Below, in pieces: positions 2,229 to 63,009 of a stretch of 64,000 nucleotides of DNA (positions within the stretch are counted from its first letter, which is position 1; each line of letters begins with the position of its first letter). Where the stretch lies: assembly GCA_947652735.1 (NCBI GenBank), contig CANTEG010000008.1:1-64000 (forward strand), in the 5' to 3' direction. The position numbers and the translations under genes are program-made. The DNA comes from an uncultured Lachnospiraceae bacterium. Lineage in GTDB: Bacteria > Bacillota > Clostridia > Lachnospirales > Lachnospiraceae. The notes under the pieces were generated by a model. The model saw only the letters and a list, made by a program, of their open reading frames with translations, made no database searches and was not told where the DNA came from.

Positions 2229-2416
2229 ATATTATTAACTCTTATGTATTTTAAATTAATATATGCAAAAAGTAAATAGTAAATTAAAAAAACTGTTATA
2301 ATATGTTATAATTATTTTTGGTTGCATCCAATTGCAAAATTAATACTTGAACCATACAAGGTTTACGAATACCTAAATTACGGTTATATCAAGTCTTCTG
2401 TGAAAGCTTGATTGTG

Positions 2417-2483
2417 GTATGTCCGGTGGTTAAGCCGCTGAGACTTGTCAACCCATTTACTGAAAGTAATTTCAAATAACTGA
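2417..2483 (+). promoter_or_regulatory. Leader element copy J, upstream of the alanine-racemase-like gene
   Basis: This stretch matches the minus-strand leader of parA (9117 down to about 9062) at about 45 of 56 positions. The shared parts are GTATGTCCGG, a short hairpin closed by CGGYGG/CCGCYG with wobble replacements, GAGACTYGTCA and CCATTTAYTGAAAGTAA. Here the usual 3' closing strand ATGGGCTGATGTT is missing; a GTCA/TGAC pairing near 2448 and 2482 may replace it. The gene's own GGAGG follows at 2498-2502. See the finding on the repeated leader. Confidence 0.55.
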
Positions 2484-2509
2484 CGTCCAATAATCAGGAG
2501 GAATTATAA

Positions 2510-3625: not shown

Positions 3626-3713
3626 TCATTATGCCAAGTACACAATAAAAATTTGAGATACAGCGTCATCTCATTTTAAGTAATGCGTTGATGTTTAACA
3701 CTGAGGTAAAAAT

Positions 3714-8944: not shown

Positions 8945-9117
8945 TTAAACATCAATCCATCATTTCATAATTCCCTACGGAACAATTTATCCTTAAAACC
9001 CCATTTACTTTGAGACGCCCCTGGACATATGTCTATAGGAAAGGCCGTTTCCTATAAAACCAATTTACTTTCAATAAATGGACTGACGAGTCTCGGCGGC
9101 AAATCCGCCGGACATAC
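8945..9117 (-). promoter_or_regulatory. Leader element copy I, upstream of parA
   Basis: Read on the minus strand, it starts with GTATGTCCGGCGG-CCGCCGAGACTC (9117-9088), then GTCAGTCCAT (9087-9078). A hairpin follows, TATAGGAAA with TTTCCTATA around GGCC. It ends with ATGGATTGATGTTTAA (8960-8945), 8-12 bases before parA's GGAGG. The ends GTCAGTCCAT and ATGGATTGAT can form ten pairs with only G-T wobbles; the sixth pair is T-A where fumarase copy A has C-G. This is one of the most complete copies in the window. Confidence 0.7.
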
Positions 9118-9487
9118 TGCATATCAAGTTTTCACATGAAACCTGATGCATTTTATTTCCCATATTTCAACATTATAACACTTACTTAGAGCTTTCGCCA
9201 TATCTAAATATAGCCATTAATTTAATATTACCACAATATATAGATTTTGATATGGAAGCATGGGTAATAATTATGTTTTATTTGACAGAATTTTTATTGA
9301 TATATTATGTGAAATCCGCTAAAAATTGAATACTAACATTAAATATGCCATATTTTTAATGATGTTTTATATCTCATATTGGTTAATCGCACGAAAATTT
9401 GTCGTTACAGAATTTACCAACTTTTTTCTAATGCTTAAATTTTTTTTTGAGAATAATACATTCTTAAATAAAACTATGTTTCATAAA

Positions 9488-15957: not shown

Positions 15958-16149
15958 AGTTCCTCCCTTTTACCATTCACACATAAATTATTTATTCACC
16001 AACAGACAATACTTCTTTAATTATCCTATAAAATGCGGAAAAAAACAAGAAAATAATTATAGCACGTGCATATTTTCAAAATATAGTATCAATGTCTCAA
16101 ATTTTTTAAGATTGCTCTTATGTATTTCTAATGTTAAAATGATTATTAT

Positions 16150-16231
16150 GTCAGCTCATTTGCTGAAACACTAATTTAGATATTACAGACACGTTCCCAA
16201 GGAAACTGCTAAGCAATGGGCTGGTGTTTAA
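16150..16231 (+). promoter_or_regulatory. Leader element copy D, upstream of trmB
   Basis: Begins GTCAGCTCAT (16150-16159) and ends CAATGGGCTGGTGTTTAA before AGGTGA and the trmB start. The ends form ten pairs, three of them G-T. An inner hairpin is GTTCC-CAA-GGAAAC, followed by CTGCTAAGCAATGGGC as in the fumarase copy (CTGCTAGGTAATGGGC). The TTTGCTGAAA after the 5' strand matches CATTTAYTGAAAG of copies I and J. Confidence 0.65.
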
Positions 16232-16887: not shown

Positions 16888-16978
16888 AATAAATTAAACT
16901 TCGTCCTATTTTTTGAATATACTATATTAAAGAATTACAAAGCTTATGTGTGGTTTTCATAAAAGCCTGACATGCCGT

Positions 16979-17043
16979 GCCTATCTATTTACTAAAAAAT
17001 TCGCTTTTATCGGAACCTGCTAAAGAATAGGCTGATGTTCAAT
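16979..17043 (+). promoter_or_regulatory. Leader element copy E, upstream of a 52-residue gene
   Basis: GCCTAT (16979-16984) pairs exactly with ATAGGC (17027-17032), which continues as TGATGTTCAA. The third C-G pair of other copies is T-A here (CCTAT/ATAGG), a compensatory change. CGGAACCTGCTAAAGAATAGGC matches GGAACCTGCTAGGTAATGGGC of the fumarase copy. AGAAGG of the next small gene follows about 12 bases later. Confidence 0.6.
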
Positions 17044-23813: not shown

Positions 23814-23841
23814 TTTCTTTTTCCTCTCTTTCTGAATTAAT

Positions 23842-24090
23842 TAAAAAGTCCCCAGCATACTTTTTTGTATGCTAGGGACGATATATCGCGGTTCCACCCT
23901 AGTTCTGCAACAGTTCTTATCTGCAACAGCACTTCATTTCAGATTATAACGTAATCAACGGCTTATATTTTGTATAAGCAGCTCCGAGGTAGTTTTCAGA
24001 TAAGCGTAAATTAAATTTTCTTTCAGCACGTTTGAAAATTCTCTCTGTAAATTCGTTTTTATCTTACTCGTCTCATCATAGCTGTTAATA
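23842..24090 (-). promoter_or_regulatory. T-box leader of thrS
   Basis: On the minus strand the conserved T-box AGGGTGGAACCGCG lies at 23901-23887. It is followed by a terminator made of GTCCCTAGCATAC and GTATGCTGGGGAC with a T-run (23879-23842). The T-box can pair with upstream sequence as antiterminator when uncharged tRNA binds. Upstream, AACTACC near 23980 is a likely specifier region, giving an ACC or ACT threonine codon; its exact frame is inferred. The upstream limit of stem I is approximate. Confidence 0.92.
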
Positions 24091-27854: not shown

Positions 27855-27985
27855 AATCTTATGTCTCCTTTCTATATTTGTATGTTTTTCATTTTCAAAG
27901 AAACAAAATTTCCTATCGAGTGAAAAGACACCAAGACATATTATATTTAAAAAGACCTGCCACGTCAAGCAATATTTATTTTTTT

Positions 27986-28015
27986 CCATCCAATTGGGCG
28001 GATTTGACCAGTACT
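27986..28015. repeat. Left copy of a 30-bp flanking repeat
   Basis: CCATCCAATTGGGCGGATTT followed by GACCAGTACT. It matches 25 of 30 bases with 32954-32983. The two copies bracket the inserted exporter block between rpmH and dnaA and are in the same orientation. Confidence 0.6.
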
Positions 28016-28146
28016 AGGACAATGTACTTATTTACATGGGGGTTTTGTTATTTTATAATTTAAGTATGACATATACTCATAAGCTACAGATTATATAATA
28101 AGTGGGAGATATTTTTTACTGATTAAAAGCTTGGGAGGTACATTTC

Positions 28147-28497
28147 ATGAAACGAAAAGTGATTACTATTTTATTAAGCCTTATGTTATTTGGGGGTACA
28201 GCATTGCAGACCTATGAGAGTAAAGCGGTTAGCTTATCCGTATCAACAAACGGACCAATAAAAGCCGTTTCCAACAGTTCAGCCACATTACAGGTACGCT
28301 GGACTAACACGCAAGGAGAAAGCGTACTTACAGCTACAAAAAATTTAAAAAACATTAGTGTCAGCGTCAGCTTTGGTGGTTTTACATATACAAACAGCAC
28401 AGTTTCTCTACGTCCCGGATATTCAGCAAAAGCAACCAAAGATGTAGGATATGTCCACACATACTTATATGGGAGTTCCGTATATGAGATAAAATAA
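28147..28497 (+). CDS. Small secreted protein, possible bacteriocin-like peptide
   Basis: A 116-residue protein with a signal peptide (MKRKVITILLSLMLFGGTAL) and a likely cleavage after SKA near residue 27. The mature part is rich in S, T, V and G, with alternating strands (LSVSTNGPIKAVSN, SVSVSFGGFTYTN) and a C-terminal HTYLYGSSVYEIK. No Cys. It is the first gene of a block with an ABC-2 exporter, a pattern seen for secreted bacteriocins of the lactococcin 972 type and for other exported peptides; the sequence does not clearly show either family. GGGAGG precedes the ATG. Confidence 0.55.
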   Translation: MKRKVITILLSLMLFGGTALQTYESKAVSLSVSTNGPIKAVSNSSATLQVRWTNTQGESVLTATKNLKNISVSVSFGGFTYTNSTVSLRPGYSAKATKDVGYVHTYLYGSSVYEIK

Positions 28498-28559
28498 TAA
28501 TTAATATCTTTAATTTTATATAGTCTGTAGCTTTATTATAACAAATCGGGGGAATTAAT

Positions 28560-29861
28560 ATGAAAACAAAACGAATCCTGTACATATTATTGACACTTTT
28601 TTTGCTGCTTGGCATTTCTCTGTTTTATATAGCAAAAAAACAACATAAAAAAAATACCAGCAGTGAATCAATACTTTATACGAACGAACATGGTGGCATA
28701 TATGGTGCTCCCACTCCTGATGGGGTTTTCTATATCTATATTAAAAACAATGGGTATCTGGACTATTTTATCCGATTTATAGATTACGAAACAGGACAGG
28801 ATATTGCCGTATGCAACAAGCCGGAATGTTCACATGACACAAGGGACTGCAATGCTTTTTTATGTAGTTCTGTCTCTGCAGATGAAAATAAAATGGCATT
28901 TTATATTTTTACTTTTAACCATAAGCTGTATTTTTCAATTAGGGAGGGAGACGATGATGCCGGTGGTGTAAGCAGTATGTCCTTATATGCACAGGATTTT
29001 GACGGTGAAAACAGAAAACACCTTTTTACGCTGGACCATGAGTTGTTCCAGCAAATTGTAACCTTTGAAAATACAATTATTTTTTCAACTGCCTATAATG
29101 ATAAAACATTTATGAAGCAATTTGAGGGTAAGGATATGTCACAGGTAACAAGTGAAGATTATGACGAAATGCAAAAACATATTTGCTATAGTCTATGGTC
29201 GTATAATACACAAACCGGAGAACTTACCAAGCTTCAGGAATCCTTTGGCAAACGTGAAAAAGAATATGCCATAGAATCCATTGTCCCGTCCGATGATGAA
29301 CATGGATTTTATTATGTTTCTGGTGCCGGTGCTGATTTTTCTTCAACATGGTACTACTATGATATCGCTTCCAACACATATGAAGAGATTATGACAGACT
29401 TTTCAGCCTGTGATGTTTTTGGCACGATGCGAATTTATAATAAAAAGCTGTATTATCGTGATAAAGATACAGGCGACTTTTGTTGTTACGACATAAATAC
29501 AGGAACAATAACCAAACTGGCAGATATGGGGGAAAGTACAGATTCTTTCCTATCAGACGATAAGCTTTTCTGGAATTGGGGCTATGGTGAAGATACAGAT
29601 TACGCAAAAACCTACCAGAGATGGGTTTACTTTGACTATAAAAAAGAAAAGTTTTATGTGGCAAAGGAAGGCGGACATTATCCAATCTACTCATCGGGAG
29701 AGAAAGGTATCGTGGATTACACGGATTATTATAGTATGGAAATTTTACAGTCACAAAATATCGCATACGATTATCAGGTAACTGATATGAATACATATTA
29801 CAAAGACTGCTATAAGGAATATGAAAATGAATATGCGGACGCATTATTAAATATAAATTAG
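28560..29861 (+). CDS. Membrane-anchored surface protein with a Cys cluster, beta-propeller-like
   Basis: A 433-residue protein with one N-terminal helix (RILYILLTLFLLLGISLFYI), then an outside part of repeated beta strands with aromatic/acidic turns (FYIYIKNNG, LYFSIREGDDD, LYYRDKDTGDFCCYD, KLFWNWGYGED), suggestive of a propeller. Early in it lies CNKPECSHDTRDCNAFLC, a Cys-rich segment often placed at this point in Lachnospiraceae surface proteins. GGGGG before the ATG. It ends 13 bases before the ABC ATPase gene. Unknown function; it may act as receptor or immunity protein for the neighbouring exporter. Gene and neighbours are much richer in A and T than the flanking housekeeping genes. Confidence 0.6.
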   Translation: MKTKRILYILLTLFLLLGISLFYIAKKQHKKNTSSESILYTNEHGGIYGAPTPDGVFYIYIKNNGYLDYFIRFIDYETGQDIAVCNKPECSHDTRDCNAFLCSSVSADENKMAFYIFTFNHKLYFSIREGDDDAGGVSSMSLYAQDFDGENRKHLFTLDHELFQQIVTFENTIIFSTAYNDKTFMKQFEGKDMSQVTSEDYDEMQKHICYSLWSYNTQTGELTKLQESFGKREKEYAIESIVPSDDEHGFYYVSGAGADFSSTWYYYDIASNTYEEIMTDFSACDVFGTMRIYNKKLYYRDKDTGDFCCYDINTGTITKLADMGESTDSFLSDDKLFWNWGYGEDTDYAKTYQRWVYFDYKKEKFYVAKEGGHYPIYSSGEKGIVDYTDYYSMEILQSQNIAYDYQVTDMNTYYKDCYKEYENEYADALLNIN

Positions 29862-41880: not shown

Positions 41881-41907
41881 TTCGTTGATATGAACTGATG
41901 TTCAAAA
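41881..41907 (+). promoter_or_regulatory. Leader element copy K (3' part only)
   Basis: TGAACTGATGTTCAAAAGGA matches the 3' end of the other leader copies (CTGATGTTCAA) just before the ribosome binding site of a small membrane gene. GAAC/GTTC can form a short hairpin. The 5' strand and inner modules are absent, so this is a minimal or degenerate copy. Confidence 0.35.
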
Positions 41908-42173: not shown

Positions 42174-42177
42174 TGGT

Positions 42178-42312
42178 TGTGTCAGCCCATAGGTTCTCGA
42201 TTTACAAAGTAAATCGAACATATGCTGAAAGAAAATTTGGTTTTATAGGAAACTTCGTTTCCTATAGGCACGTTCCTAAAGGAACCTGCTAGGTAATGGG
42301 CTAATGTTTAGG
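42178..42312 (+). promoter_or_regulatory. Leader element copy A, upstream of fumarase; the most complete copy
   Basis: Outer strands: TGTCAGCCCAT (42180-42190) and AATGGGCTAATGTTTAG (42296-42312). Three hairpins lie inside: CGATTTAC-AAA-GTAAATCG (42198-42216), TATAGGAAAC-TTC-GTTTCCTATA (42245-42267) and GTTCC-TAAA-GGAAC (42272-42285). The next bases are GATAGGAGG, the ribosome binding site. No promoter is visible between the gyrA terminator and the element, so a promoter must lie within it or transcription must read through. Confidence 0.7.
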
Positions 42313-43852: not shown

Positions 43853-43947
43853 AATTTAACGAGGATGTATACTTAAACAAGTTAACTATAAAATTAATAT
43901 ATTTAGATTTAAACAGTTATATAAAAGGTACATAGAAGGAGGTTAAT

Positions 43948-44802
43948 ATGAGTAAGGTTTGTTGCGGAATCACCTACTCCGATAAAGACAGATTTTGCCG
44001 TGTTTGTGGAAAACGTCTTGAGGATGAGGAAGAAAAAACCGTTCTAATCAATGAACAGCAGATACGAAATGCTATAGAGGATGATGAGTCGGGAACGTCT
44101 GTGCTTACGGCAGATATGAGAGGTCCTATTAAGCATCCTGAAAATGCAGAACAGGCTGGGAATTCAAAGGAAGATAGCCCTGTAGACAGTAAAAGCGAGG
44201 ATGTTTCTGTTGATGGTGAGGACAGCAAGAGTGAAGACAGTCCTGCCGATAATGACAAAGAAGACAATAAGAACAAAAATGCTGAAGCCGATGATAAAGA
44301 TAATAAGAGTGAAGAAAAAACGGCAGAAGGTGACAGTGATGAGGATGATGAGGACTCAACTACATCAATACTTACAGCAGACATGAAGAAACAGGCACCA
44401 CAGACACAGCCAAATGGCGTACCAAAGCAGCCAATGCCGAGTCAGATGCCACCGATGCAGCCAAATGGCAAACCAATGCAACAGATGCCAGGTCAGATGC
44501 CACCGATGCAGCCAAACGGCAGACCAATGCAGCAGATGCCGGGTCAGATGCCACCGATGCAGCAACCTGCAAAGCCAAAGAAGTCTGAGGAGCAAAAGGA
44601 AAAAACAGCAAAAACCTGTGGATTGATTTCCTTGATTGTGTCAGGTATAGGACTTGTTGCAGTTGCCGTTATGTTATTTTTATTTGTATTGAATGCCGAT
44701 TATAAAAAGTACGATAAGGAAGCTGAAAAGGGGTTATACAATTCAACTCCGACCACGGAGACAGCATCGTCCGGTGATAGTTTAAGCAGTGAGGAGGAAT
44801 AA
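43948..44802 (+). CDS. Zinc-ribbon membrane protein with acidic and PMQ-rich repeats
   Basis: A 284-residue protein. The N-terminal CCGITYSDKDRFCRVCG is a zinc-ribbon-like knuckle; then come two ITAD-like TSVLTADM/TSILTADM copies around a very acidic Ser/Asp/Glu-rich stretch, then repeats of the type PNGKPMQQMPGQMPPMQ (residues about 150-210), a basic patch and a single helix near the end (CGLISLIVSGIGLVAVAVML). Unknown function; same design as the proteins at 18690 and 21218. GGAGG before the ATG. It is coupled to the next gene, 2 bases on. Confidence 0.65.
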   Translation: MSKVCCGITYSDKDRFCRVCGKRLEDEEEKTVLINEQQIRNAIEDDESGTSVLTADMRGPIKHPENAEQAGNSKEDSPVDSKSEDVSVDGEDSKSEDSPADNDKEDNKNKNAEADDKDNKSEEKTAEGDSDEDDEDSTTSILTADMKKQAPQTQPNGVPKQPMPSQMPPMQPNGKPMQQMPGQMPPMQPNGRPMQQMPGQMPPMQQPAKPKKSEEQKEKTAKTCGLISLIVSGIGLVAVAVMLFLFVLNADYKKYDKEAEKGLYNSTPTTETASSGDSLSSEEE

Positions 44803-44804
44803 GA

Positions 44805-46280
44805 ATGAATAGAAAAAAATGGACAACAATAACAATTATTTCTCTCATTGTGTTTGCACTTGAAATTGTGTCAGTGTTTGTATTTATTCTTCCAAGTAAA
44901 AATATCAATGATGTTTTTAAGGCACTTGAAGAGGGGAATTCAAAAAAAGCAGAAGCCGCATTGGATAAGCTTTCAGATAAAAACGAGGATAAGGTTGAAG
45001 AATTAATGGATGATTTTGCAACCTATCAGTGCAATCAATATGCACAGGGAGCAATTGATTATAATAAGCTGCACCAAATACTTCAGTCAATTGATGATAT
45101 GGATGATTATTATGGATTTTCAAGAGAATTCCACACATATGCTGCATCAAAAGAAATTATAAAAATTTGTGATTTGGCTTATGAAGAAAATAATGCCAAT
45201 GGAAAATCGTCTATATTTTATGAGTATCAGACTCAGGTAACGGATATTTACTATGATATTAATGAAAGAACATATATTGATGAGGAGCTTAAAAAATTCA
45301 TTGATGAAAAATATGATAGCTATTTAGCAGGAACTATGAGCTTTGATGAAATATCTGAGTACATGGATGTTGCATCTTACGTTTTACCAGGCGATGCAAG
45401 CTACTACGCAATAGACTTGCAAATGCAGCTTTCACTGATTGAAGACTATCAGGAAAAATATGATATTGCAAAAAAATATTACGATGATATGAAGTACTTT
45501 GAGACAATTGAAGAATGTGATAATGCGGCAGTACCTGAATCAGATGTAACAGGATTTTATGATAAATTTAAAACCTTGAGGCAGGATGCATATGATGCAG
45601 GAAAAACCTACTATGTAAAGGAAGCCGAAAATTTAGCAAATGCAAATGATTATGAGGGTGCAAGAGATATTATTAACAGTATTAAGGAAGTGTATGGTGA
45701 TGAGGTAGATACTTCTGAATTAGAGGCACTTGTTGTTGCACCGTGGATGGAAGTATATGCAAAGTACATGAAAAATATGGAAAAAAATCTTAAGAGACAG
45801 GCTGCAAAGGGAGTTAAGATTGGAGAATGTGATGACTCTACTCTTATCAATGTAGATGATTACATGCCTGATAAAATGTATCTCTATGATTTTGATAACG
45901 ATGGAATACCTGAAATGTTACTTACAAATGGTTCCTATGCATTTATTGTCGGTTATAATGGCGAGAGGGCTGTTCTGACAGGATTTGTTCAGGCTGCAAC
46001 ATTTTGTGATGCGCCATACCTTATTACAATACCAACAGCAATGCCTGAGGGGTATATTGGTTATGCACTCATTAAGCTTGAAAACTGCAAATGGAGCGTT
46101 GAGGAATACTATTATGCTGCCGAAGACGGAAGCAAATATATTGTCAACGGTTCTGAGGTTGACTATGATACATGTAACGCCGAGCATGATAAGATAGCAA
46201 CTTATGAAAATAAGGATATAGAAATAGATTATGGTGATTATGTAGAAAATTATGAGGAAGTAATTTACGGATATAAGTAA
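44805..46280 (+). CDS. Membrane-anchored protein with a large outer domain
   Basis: A 491-residue protein with an N-terminal helix (WTTITIISLIVFALEIVSVFV, residues 6-27) and about 460 residues outside. The middle is helical and acidic, with TPR-like spacing (EEGNSKKAEAALDKLSDKNE, ANANDYEGARDIINSIKEV). The C-terminal 150 residues are a beta domain with the calcium-loop-like YDFDNDGIPEMLL. GGAGG before the ATG overlaps the end of the previous gene, so the two are translated together; they probably act as one envelope complex. Function unknown. Confidence 0.65.
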   Translation: MNRKKWTTITIISLIVFALEIVSVFVFILPSKNINDVFKALEEGNSKKAEAALDKLSDKNEDKVEELMDDFATYQCNQYAQGAIDYNKLHQILQSIDDMDDYYGFSREFHTYAASKEIIKICDLAYEENNANGKSSIFYEYQTQVTDIYYDINERTYIDEELKKFIDEKYDSYLAGTMSFDEISEYMDVASYVLPGDASYYAIDLQMQLSLIEDYQEKYDIAKKYYDDMKYFETIEECDNAAVPESDVTGFYDKFKTLRQDAYDAGKTYYVKEAENLANANDYEGARDIINSIKEVYGDEVDTSELEALVVAPWMEVYAKYMKNMEKNLKRQAAKGVKIGECDDSTLINVDDYMPDKMYLYDFDNDGIPEMLLTNGSYAFIVGYNGERAVLTGFVQAATFCDAPYLITIPTAMPEGYIGYALIKLENCKWSVEEYYYAAEDGSKYIVNGSEVDYDTCNAEHDKIATYENKDIEIDYGDYVENYEEVIYGYK

Positions 46281-46996: not shown

Positions 46997-47364
46997 AATA
47001 AATAAGGTTTCCTATCGGAGTGTCTCTTGTGAGGGCTGTCGATATGTGAACTATAGTTACAAAGGCATTTTGTTCTTTAATTTTATATAATTATCTTGGT
47101 TAAATAATATCAATTTGAGTTTTATATTTCATTTAGGACAATTTAGTTGAAAATCCCAGTATAACAATTTTTAAAGAAATGTTTTTTAGTTAAAACACAA
47201 CAAAAACTTGTTGAGGATAAAAAACAATGTTTTTGGCACCAAAAAAATTTAAAAGCAAAAGTAGTCAAACCTATATGTAATCTTGGGAATATGAAATAAC
47301 TGAATATTGTATTTCTGATTTTATTACTTTGGTTATGTCAGGCTGTCTATTAAAACCTGACAAG
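46997..47364. other. Intergenic stretch before the AgrB-like gene
   Basis: About 370 bases of AT-rich DNA after the tRNA terminator. It holds a small TGTCAGG/CCTGACA hairpin (47337-47362) and a 17-codon ORF (MFLAPKKFKSKSSQTYM, near 47227) with a weak ribosome binding site. No AgrD-like gene is seen. Confidence 0.5.
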
Positions 47365-47414
47365 TGGCATCAGCTTATTTGTGGAACGCAAATTTAAAGT
47401 TGGTTGATGCTCAA
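47365..47414 (+). promoter_or_regulatory. Leader element copy F, upstream of the AgrB-like gene
   Basis: GCATCAGC (47367-47374) pairs with GTTGATGC (47403-47410) over eight positions, and the 3' strand TTGGTTGATGCTCAA matches the other copies. The stem is shifted outward compared with copy A (GATGC pairs with GCATC), so the pairing is kept with different bases. Inner modules are short. Confidence 0.55.
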
Positions 47415-50239: not shown

Positions 50240-50291
50240 GGTTATAGGCACGTTTCTAAAGGAACCTGCCAAGTAATGAGATGATGCTCAA
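50240..50291 (+). promoter_or_regulatory. Leader element copy G, between the HMA gene and the ATPase gene
   Basis: TTATAGGCACGTTTC-TAAA-GGAACCTGC and AAGTAATGAGATGATGCTCAA match the 3' half of the fumarase leader (TATAGGCACGTTCCTAAAGG, AATGGGCTAATGTTTAG). A clear 5' partner is not seen, so this is a half copy. It lies inside an operon rather than at its start, which suggests a role at the mRNA level. Confidence 0.6.
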
Positions 50292-56354: not shown

Positions 56355-56626
56355 TTTATAGACATGCGAAGCGTATAGGGGCGCTGTACGGAAACAGAGA
56401 GCCATAATATTAGGGAGCCGATGCAATATCGACATAATATCCCAAGGTTATGTTGAAATTTCCGATTTATTTTTAGAAATTGTCGATGTATGTTGTTGAT
56501 TATGGAAAGAAATTAGCGATATACAAATTTTTTATGCGGGTTTTCAATGTAATTGTTGAAAAATATGTGGTTAATGTTTATAATCTTCTCCTAACCTGAT
56601 TTATAATTCGACATGTTTTATGGAAT
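56355..56626. other. Intergenic stretch
   Basis: About 270 AT-rich bases after the decarboxylase gene. Short imperfect hairpins only (for example AATATTAGGGAG...ATATCCCAAG); no ORF, tRNA or clear promoter seen. Confidence 0.5.
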
Positions 56627-56723
56627 GTCATTGGTTTGCAAAAGGTAAAACTGGTTTTATGGAAACTTGGGTTCCGATAGACATATCCTTAAATGAATTT
56701 GCGGGTAATCATCTGATATTTAA
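56627..56723 (+). promoter_or_regulatory. Leader element copy H, upstream of the MATE gene (degenerate)
   Basis: GTCATTGGTTTGCAAAAGGT and ACTGGTTTTATGGAAAC match the parA copy (GTCAGTCCATTTATTGAAAG, ATTGGTTTTATAGGAAAC); it ends GGGTAATCATCTGATATTTAAG. The outer stem and inner hairpins are weakened by changes, so this may be a decaying copy. Confidence 0.5.
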
Positions 56724-60517: not shown

Positions 60518-60542
60518 TTGATAGGAAAGCATCCTATTGGTT

Positions 60543-60622
60543 GTGTCAGCCCATGAGTTTTCGATTTACAAAGTAAATCGGAACATATGCTGAAAGCAAA
60601 TTTGGAATGGGTTGATGTTCAG
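60543..60622 (+). promoter_or_regulatory. Leader element copy B, upstream of the 753-residue surface protein
   Basis: GTGTCAGCCCAT (60543-60554) pairs with ATGGGTTGATGTT (60607-60619); relative to copy A one C-G pair is replaced by a G-T. Inside: hairpin CGATTTAC-AAA-GTAAATCG and ACATATGCTGAAAGCAAATTTGG as in copies A and C. Before the element, ATAGGA-AAGCA-TCCTAT may end the buk transcript. AAAGGAG follows. Confidence 0.7.
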
Positions 60623-62899: not shown

Positions 62900-62910
62900 T
62901 TAAGTTGGCA

Positions 62911-62991
62911 GCGTCACTTCACAGGTTCTCGATTTACAAAGTAAATTGGAACATATGCTGAAAGCAAGCTTTGGAATGGACGGATGTTTTA
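62911..62991 (+). promoter_or_regulatory. Leader element copy C, upstream of aroD
   Basis: GTCACTTCAC (62913-62922) can pair in part with ATGGACGGATGTT (62976-62988): about seven of ten positions, including a T-A pair where copy A has C-G. The inner block from TTCTCGATTTACAAAGTAAA to GCTGAAAGC is almost identical to copies A and B. GAGAGG follows, just before aroD. Confidence 0.65.
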
Positions 62992-63009
62992 GAGTAGAGA
63001 GGTTAGCCT

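Follow-up and report, generated by a model that had tools for sequence, protein, structure and literature searches.

A repeated leader element before unrelated genes

The window, by which we mean the whole 64,000-nucleotide stretch of DNA analysed here, carries copies and remnants of one leader element. An earlier note on this DNA had listed copies A to K, and each was found at or near its claimed place, with F beginning at 47330, before the claimed 47365. The features are given below; the hairpin names (H1, H2, P0b, P1 to P4, M) belong to the fold described in the next section. G000 is the code for the window's genome, other G-numbers denote other genomes and L-numbers denote loci. R1 is a covariance model built from 11 copies, and SD stands for the Shine-Dalgarno sequence.

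2382..2490, plus strand: copy J; H1, P0b and a degenerate H2; before an alanine racemase gene; R1 E = 0.79
3632..3698, plus strand: degenerate copy, previously unlisted; R1 E = 0.021; common to G028 in altered form
8945..9140, minus strand: copy I, the longest; extra P0b and a P3-type insert; before a parA-like gene
16145..16231, plus strand: copy D; before a trmB-like gene; common to G028, diverged
16947..17042, plus strand: copy E, degenerate; H1 remnant and 3' end; before a small ORF; R1 match
23814..23840 (approximate limits), minus strand: empty site before thrS, behind the T-box terminator; filled in G028
23871-24088, minus strand: thrS T-box leader (Rfam); the gap from its terminator to the SD is the insertion site in G028
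41882..41904, plus strand: copy K; 3' fragment of about 20 nt with GTTC at both ends; absent in G028
42175..42311, plus strand: copy A, without H1; P1/H2, M, P3 and P4; before a fumarase gene (42327)
47330..47414, plus strand: copy F; full two-hairpin core; before an agrB-like gene; site empty in G028 and G011
50240..50291, plus strand: copy G; 3' fragment with P4 and the 3' strand of P1; before a P-type ATPase gene
56602..56723, plus strand: copy H, degenerate; before a MATE transporter gene (Pfam MatE)
60539..60622, plus strand: copy B, without H1; M and H2; before a gene for a 753-aa protein with no Pfam hit; remnant in G028
62909..62996, plus strand: copy C, found by eye; M and H2; before a type I 3-dehydroquinase gene; site empty in G028

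Pfam identifies the products downstream of J (alanine racemase), I (ParA-like), D (TrmB-like), A (fumarase), F (AgrB), G (P-type ATPase), H (MatE) and C (type I 3-dehydroquinase). These genes are unrelated, in agreement with the claim that the downstream genes have no common function. All of A to K lie in the sense of the downstream gene, as had also been noted. Within the window, R1 scores nine sites in sense with E<=1, namely E, I, F, D, A, B, 3632-3698, H and J. It also reports one antisense site (E = 0.3) and one on the minus strand (E = 2.7). R1 misses C, G and K; these three are recognisable by eye. Copy G contains the start (50281) of the mechanically called P-type ATPase ORF.

The element is abundant in G000. 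A 16-base 3' motif, with up to two mismatches, has 58 matches; its reversed control has 1. Three or more of the 58 are likely chance matches (L041, L048 and the minus-strand match in L050) that lie inside or away from a leader. R1, with 150 of 1896 first-look candidates scored, gives 49 matches at E<=1 and 30 at E<0.001. These counts, with the strong covariation reported below, confirm that the repeated structured leader is real. The statement that it belongs to no recognised family held as well: at the gathering threshold, Rfam release 15 (4227 models) returned tRNA and T-box only over the whole window, and at E<=5 it returned three matches in nine copy-bearing loci, none of them on the element. 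Judged by title, no account of the repeat appeared among the best 10-15 matches listed from the open-access literature.

Anatomy and RNA fold of the element

The core is about 80 nt long and in many species consists, in order, of GRTTG, hairpin H1, a linker, hairpin H2 and the tail TTCAA. H1 is GUGUCAAGUUUUC-NNN-GAAAACUUGACAU, a helix of 13 bp with a triloop, and the linker to H2 is AUGYAGC. H2 comprises 12 bp, a one-sided internal loop near AAAUUUGGA and another 6 bp; its outer helix is P1 and its apical helix P2. In RNA the core ends in GUUCAA. Optional modules, which are further hairpins, extend the element to about 200 nt: P0b lies between H1 and P1, M adjoins P2, and P3/P4 separate P2 from the 3' strand of P1. 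Across copies, the linker and the GUUCAA tail are conserved and the hairpin loops variable. At the base of H2, the AGC:GUU pairing has what we take to be a likeness to group II domain V; we set this candidate aside, since the remainder of that helix is free to vary.

The element had been described as a structured RNA, and the pattern of base changes supports that description. A MAFFT alignment was made of 73 core copies, drawn from G000, from its relatives within the genus and from named records. Standard pairs fill 96.9% of its pair cells; sliding one side as a control cuts this to 22-42%. Double changes occur in 15 of the 31 pairs. The double-change cells number 90, against 18.1 in shuffles, and none of 500 shuffles reaches 90, a comparison that may be lifted by relatedness of the copies, which the slid controls do not show. 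Rows L268, L095 and L097 were left out of alignment A3. The seven pairs of P1 exist in 31 variants, some seen once only; 15 of these variants differ from the commonest by one or more compensated double changes, nine of the 15 being fully paired. With other genera added (49 copies), double changes appear in 30 of 31 pairs of alignment A5, whose counts favour structure since it was fitted to the model. The fold is kept by compensating changes, and this covariation shows that it is under selection.

Position beside the Shine-Dalgarno sequence

The start codon of an ORF of at least 40 codons lies within 60 nt of 106 of the 113 non-redundant copies. An SD was recognised for 91 copies, 88 of which lie 0-8 nt from it; the claim that the element adjoins a ribosome binding site is supported. 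Because copies in L107-L169 had been found by a pattern requiring GGAGG, 33 of the 113 were removed for a recount. Without these SD-selected copies, the start falls within 60 nt in 76 of 80 cases, at 10-25 nt in 65 and at 15-20 nt in 51, with ORFs called mechanically and copies common to several species not independent of each other. The 76 copies lie in sense before a start codon, rather than in random orientation or inside genes, and the 10-25 nt rule holds for 0.035 of noncoding position-orientation pairs in the window. Among the four recount exceptions, L257 and L100 fail the ORF test although an SD and an ATG are present, and L088 and L267 remain exceptions. The recount row L097 was misframed; correctly read, it has an SD and an ATG close by.

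It might be supposed that the SD site is simply the only place where a copy is tolerated. This explanation is insufficient. Among the 49 core copies that were not SD-selected and have an upstream ORF, 23 have at least 100 nt free upstream, and 22 of these 23 still keep the start within 25 nt, so the place at the SD is not simply the only one left. Eleven copies have their upstream ORF on the other strand, and for 10 of them the start lies no more than 60 nt away. A position bias could also arise from selection for a regulatory effect.

Filled and empty sites in relatives

The window aligns to contig C2 of G028, most aligned stretches being 80-90% identical. The comparison set held one genome per species, many of them MAGs. 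In the comparison of relatives with G000, which covered 40 copies in the relatives, eight distinct sites had both flanks in the G000 DNA examined. At site F, where G000 has the element, G028 and G011 have a plain leader that is clean and alike in both, which indicates an insertion in the G000 lineage. In the thrS leader, G028 carries an element between the T-box terminator and the SD; the same leader is empty in G000, G015, G036 and G001 and holds a fragment in G011. The direction of change is backed by at least two relatives only at these two sites, F and thrS. Site A has no element in G011 and a remnant of about 11 nt in G028. The G011 copy L276 faces an uninterrupted G000 site, and the G028 copies L257 and L266, set against G000, are further cases of a filled facing an empty site. 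No target site duplication is visible at F, C, L276 or thrS, and at L257 there is an ambiguous 'ACA'; by eye, the empty sites show no constant target sequence.

Two observations on G028 itself were made along the way. L257 and L258, at the ends of G028:C1 and G028:C11, represent one copy with near-same flanks, either a repeat region or an assembly overlap. Window positions 27983-29861 match two adjacent G028:C2 stretches (43866-45761, and from 45788 on), a pattern suggestive of a local duplication in that genome.

Copies that are common to both genomes have changed more than their surroundings. Six sites hold a copy in G028 as well, namely D, E, G, H, I and 3632. Element identity there is 0.42-0.72, with copy I at 0.72; for the 100 nt upstream it is 0.60-0.94 and for the downstream flank 0.81-0.97. 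At D, exceptionally, the upstream flank (0.60) is less well kept than the element (0.67). Pooled over the 12 window copies, absent ones included, identity to G028 is 0.40 for the element, 0.74 upstream and 0.88 downstream. At 7 of the 12 window sites G028 keeps less than half of the element positions or none. Pieces are lost from either side: opposite L259, G000 keeps H1 alone, a 5'-half remnant, and of copy J the 3' end alone is recognisable in G028.

Some copies stand in tandem, and there the one on the SD side usually has the higher R2 score (L108, 96.0 versus 47.5 bits; L156, 106.8 versus 48.3 bits). The triple tandem L109 has copies of 106.2, 104.1 and 43.1 bits, and in L006, L007, L266 and L291 the upstream copy is a remnant. 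L161 is an exception, with 105.9 bits upstream and 101.5 bits at the SD.

Distribution across genomes and genera

At E<=0.01, R1 matches 9 of 37 genus genomes, seven of them with ten or more matches, and leaves 28 without; it matches none of 24 genomes from other families of the order. Of 392 genomes of the order R2 matches 12, which all belong to the window's family and represent 7 of 173 genera, and R3, a broad family model, matches 6 of 200 genomes of the family. The filters were strict and few candidates were scored per genome, so these absences are no proof and the copy numbers are minimum values. The seven element-rich genus genomes are G000, G001, G011, G015, G028, G034 and G036.

A scan of named records gave 63 stretches, of which R1 scored 51 and R2 all 63. 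R2 matches 39 of the 63 at E<=0.01, in records labelled Lachnospiraceae, Hespellia stercorisuis, Agathobacter, Clostridium, Clostridiales and Bacteroides, the Bacteroides-labelled record being G028. Hespellia stercorisuis, a carrier that is in culture, has one copy or more (L154). R2 gives no match in the planctomycete, Paenibacillaceae, Syntrophaceae, Zunongwangia or Uabimicrobium loci.

Two genomes of other genera, G076 and G369, contain a sister form at 7 and 20 sites respectively (control 0), and 25 of their 26 readable copies lie before a start codon. Of the seven cores in G076 five are the same, and in G369 H2 occurs in several variants, the most frequent of them in seven copies. Near-identical copies precede unrelated genes in G028, G076 and G369.

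Further away, the place rule weakens. A more distant form, in g33, lies between genes. Among copies from other genera, a same-strand ORF starts within 45 nt in 9 of 18, and mostly not for the G374 copies; in G572, G505, G530 and G153 a start lies within 60 nt of 14 of 17 copies, several at 41-57 nt. Distant copies thus keep the fold but follow the place rule less, so the fold is wider than the place rule.

Two further settings of related sequences may be mentioned. In L376 and L368 the distant form stands between the ATP synthase c and b subunit genes; the gene pair was checked in G253, and a closely similar copy has a like setting in G403. In L374 and L382 (G374) a related hairpin pair is part of a longer repeat with near-identical flanks and is not before a same-strand start.

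Search for a mover and for known hallmarks

We looked for enzymes that could move the element. The Y1 transposase (PF01797) has no match in any of the seven element-rich genus genomes; it matches 8 of the 37 genus genomes, of which only G027 and G035 carry elements, with two matches each. For the reverse transcriptase (PF00078), G011 gives a weak match and the six other element-rich genus genomes give none. Among the loci examined there is no ORF-bearing, coding-capable version of the element. These loci contain 84 5'-half sites, three of which lack the 3' motif within 260 nt, and all three are diverged full copies.

The ends, GRTTG...TTCAA, form no terminal inverted repeat beyond TTG/CAA, and the remaining pairing is internal. 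Two marks of MITEs are present, namely insertion differences between relatives and high copy number. In the region of L276, the copy inspected for them, there is no promoter-like or terminator-like pattern. A metabolite riboswitch was considered and rejected, since the downstream genes are unrelated, so that the conserved gene context of riboswitches is missing, and the sites are patchy.

A probable mobile element with an exact landing place

In our view the copies probably form one family of small mobile elements, non-autonomous and with an RNA fold under selection, that sit in sense beside the SD. Copies are dispersed, relatives differ by insertions, and the sense placement at the SD is found in the genus, in G076 and in G369. 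The near-constant place before the SD of unrelated genes points to a mobile element with an exact landing place rather than to a dedicated switch. In the mechanism that we propose, new copies land just 5' of the SD, in gene sense and without a clear target duplication, as a handful of sites shows. Since copies stand between the upstream gene end or terminator and the SD, they would be carried in the mRNA of the downstream gene. The core may fold on itself and leave the SD free, making the landing place harmless or mildly beneficial. Old copies lose pieces by deletion, and new ones can land between an old copy and the SD, giving the tandems seen at several loci. The copies appear to be non-autonomous, and their fold is probably selected because a mobile intermediate or a partner protein needs it. 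How the site would be found is more speculative. The element could home to translation starts via the mRNA, the ribosome or an SD-reading enzyme, without Y1 or a resident reverse transcriptase and with its fold kept for homing, though of this we are rather doubtful. A useful effect on translation or mRNA stability is a possible companion of mobility.

The main rival is a portable cis-regulatory RNA, which moves or is copied and is retained for its effect on downstream translation or mRNA stability, for example through a shared protein or signal. We hold this to be a credible reading, if not a probable one. The sense orientation and almost fixed SD distance in the genus would suit it, as would the compensating changes in the fold, which include P1 variants seen once, and the conserved linker and GUUCAA tail. 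Some sites are also kept across species (I, D, H and G; L272 with L102; the ATP synthase c-b junction in g33), as expected of a useful regulator, and this speaks against mobility. A retained regulator is harder to reconcile with the 7 of 12 window sites at which less than half of the element or none of it is kept in G028, where most aligned stretches are nonetheless 80-90% identical, with the unrelated downstream genes, with the 28 of 37 genus genomes that have no match and with the varying hairpin loops. The earlier note had proposed a broadly used cis-acting RNA rather than a metabolite riboswitch; the second part stands, given the unrelated genes, but the idea of an established cis-regulator is not supported, as the reduced or missing copies in G028 and the patchy, high-copy occurrence in genus and family resemble a mobile repeat. 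Copies in G028, G076 and G369 are near-identical, hence probably recent, and obey the place rule, which favours targeted insertion over selection after random insertion. That such copies precede unrelated genes also argues against an ancestral leader before many genes, repeatedly lost and never mobile. Remnants at several common sites would fit such a leader, but it is contradicted at site F, clean and alike in two relatives, and we consider it very improbable.

Two routes of movement were weighed for the mobile element. Insertion mediated by RNA, through target-primed reverse transcription or intron-like reverse splicing into mRNA near the ribosome, would account for the sense orientation, the position at the ribosome site and several 3'-end-only copies. 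However, PF00078 is absent from six of the seven element-rich genomes and weak in G011, a 5'-half remnant exists too (G000 opposite L259), and 3'-only copies can be deletion remnants, as for J; we therefore think this route unlikely. An IS200/IS605- or REP-type element moved by a Y1 transposase acting on single-stranded hairpins would share the two hairpins, the missing clear target duplication and the 3' end TTCAA; the end of IS608 is TCAA. The absence of PF01797 from the seven element-rich genus genomes, and of a constant left-flank motif by eye, leaves this route with hardly any likelihood.

If the element lands within a few bases of ribosome-binding sites as we propose, in three genera or more, it would be a mobile device for rewiring the leaders of genes that have nothing in common, and it would imply an unrecognised way of reading gene starts. 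It is also a warning that a mobile repeat can give rise to covariation and an unvarying place in the leader, by which regulatory RNAs are usually recognised.

Comparison with known systems

Small dispersed repeats are common in bacteria. REP/REPIN and IS200/IS605-derived elements have hairpins and no target duplication, and the present element is like them in its hairpins and in the lack of a clear target duplication at the sites seen; it is unlike them in its SD placement and in the lack of Y1 in the element-rich genus genomes. With riboswitches and T-boxes it shares a structured RNA in the leader, on the sense strand, but it has no common gene function, differs by insertion between relatives and has no Rfam match.

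In the published account, the authors think that the BOX repeats of Streptococcus pneumoniae are parasitic mobile repeats expressed with genes, and pneumococcal repeats, SPRITE most strongly, are over-represented between convergent genes, where constraint is lower (PMC3049150). Compared by description, our element resembles BOX in being modular, with optional inner modules, a tight fold with paired ends and a high copy number, and is unlike BOX in its place at the SD and its sense orientation (PMC3049150). MITEs, including Correia elements, are similarly short, non-coding, dispersed and structured (PMC3049150, PMC10969869). Unlike them, the element has no terminal inverted repeat beyond 3 bp, shows no clear target duplication, is sense-oriented and keeps a fixed distance to the SD. 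Correia elements are reported to lie mostly immediately upstream of genes (PMC10969869), so that a place near genes is not by itself unheard of, and Correia is the nearest described parallel for place.

A second, different dispersed repeat was also noticed in G000, at L306:173-255 (G000:C5:60173-60255). It has dozens of matches, in both orientations, in G028, G011, G001, G015 and G034.
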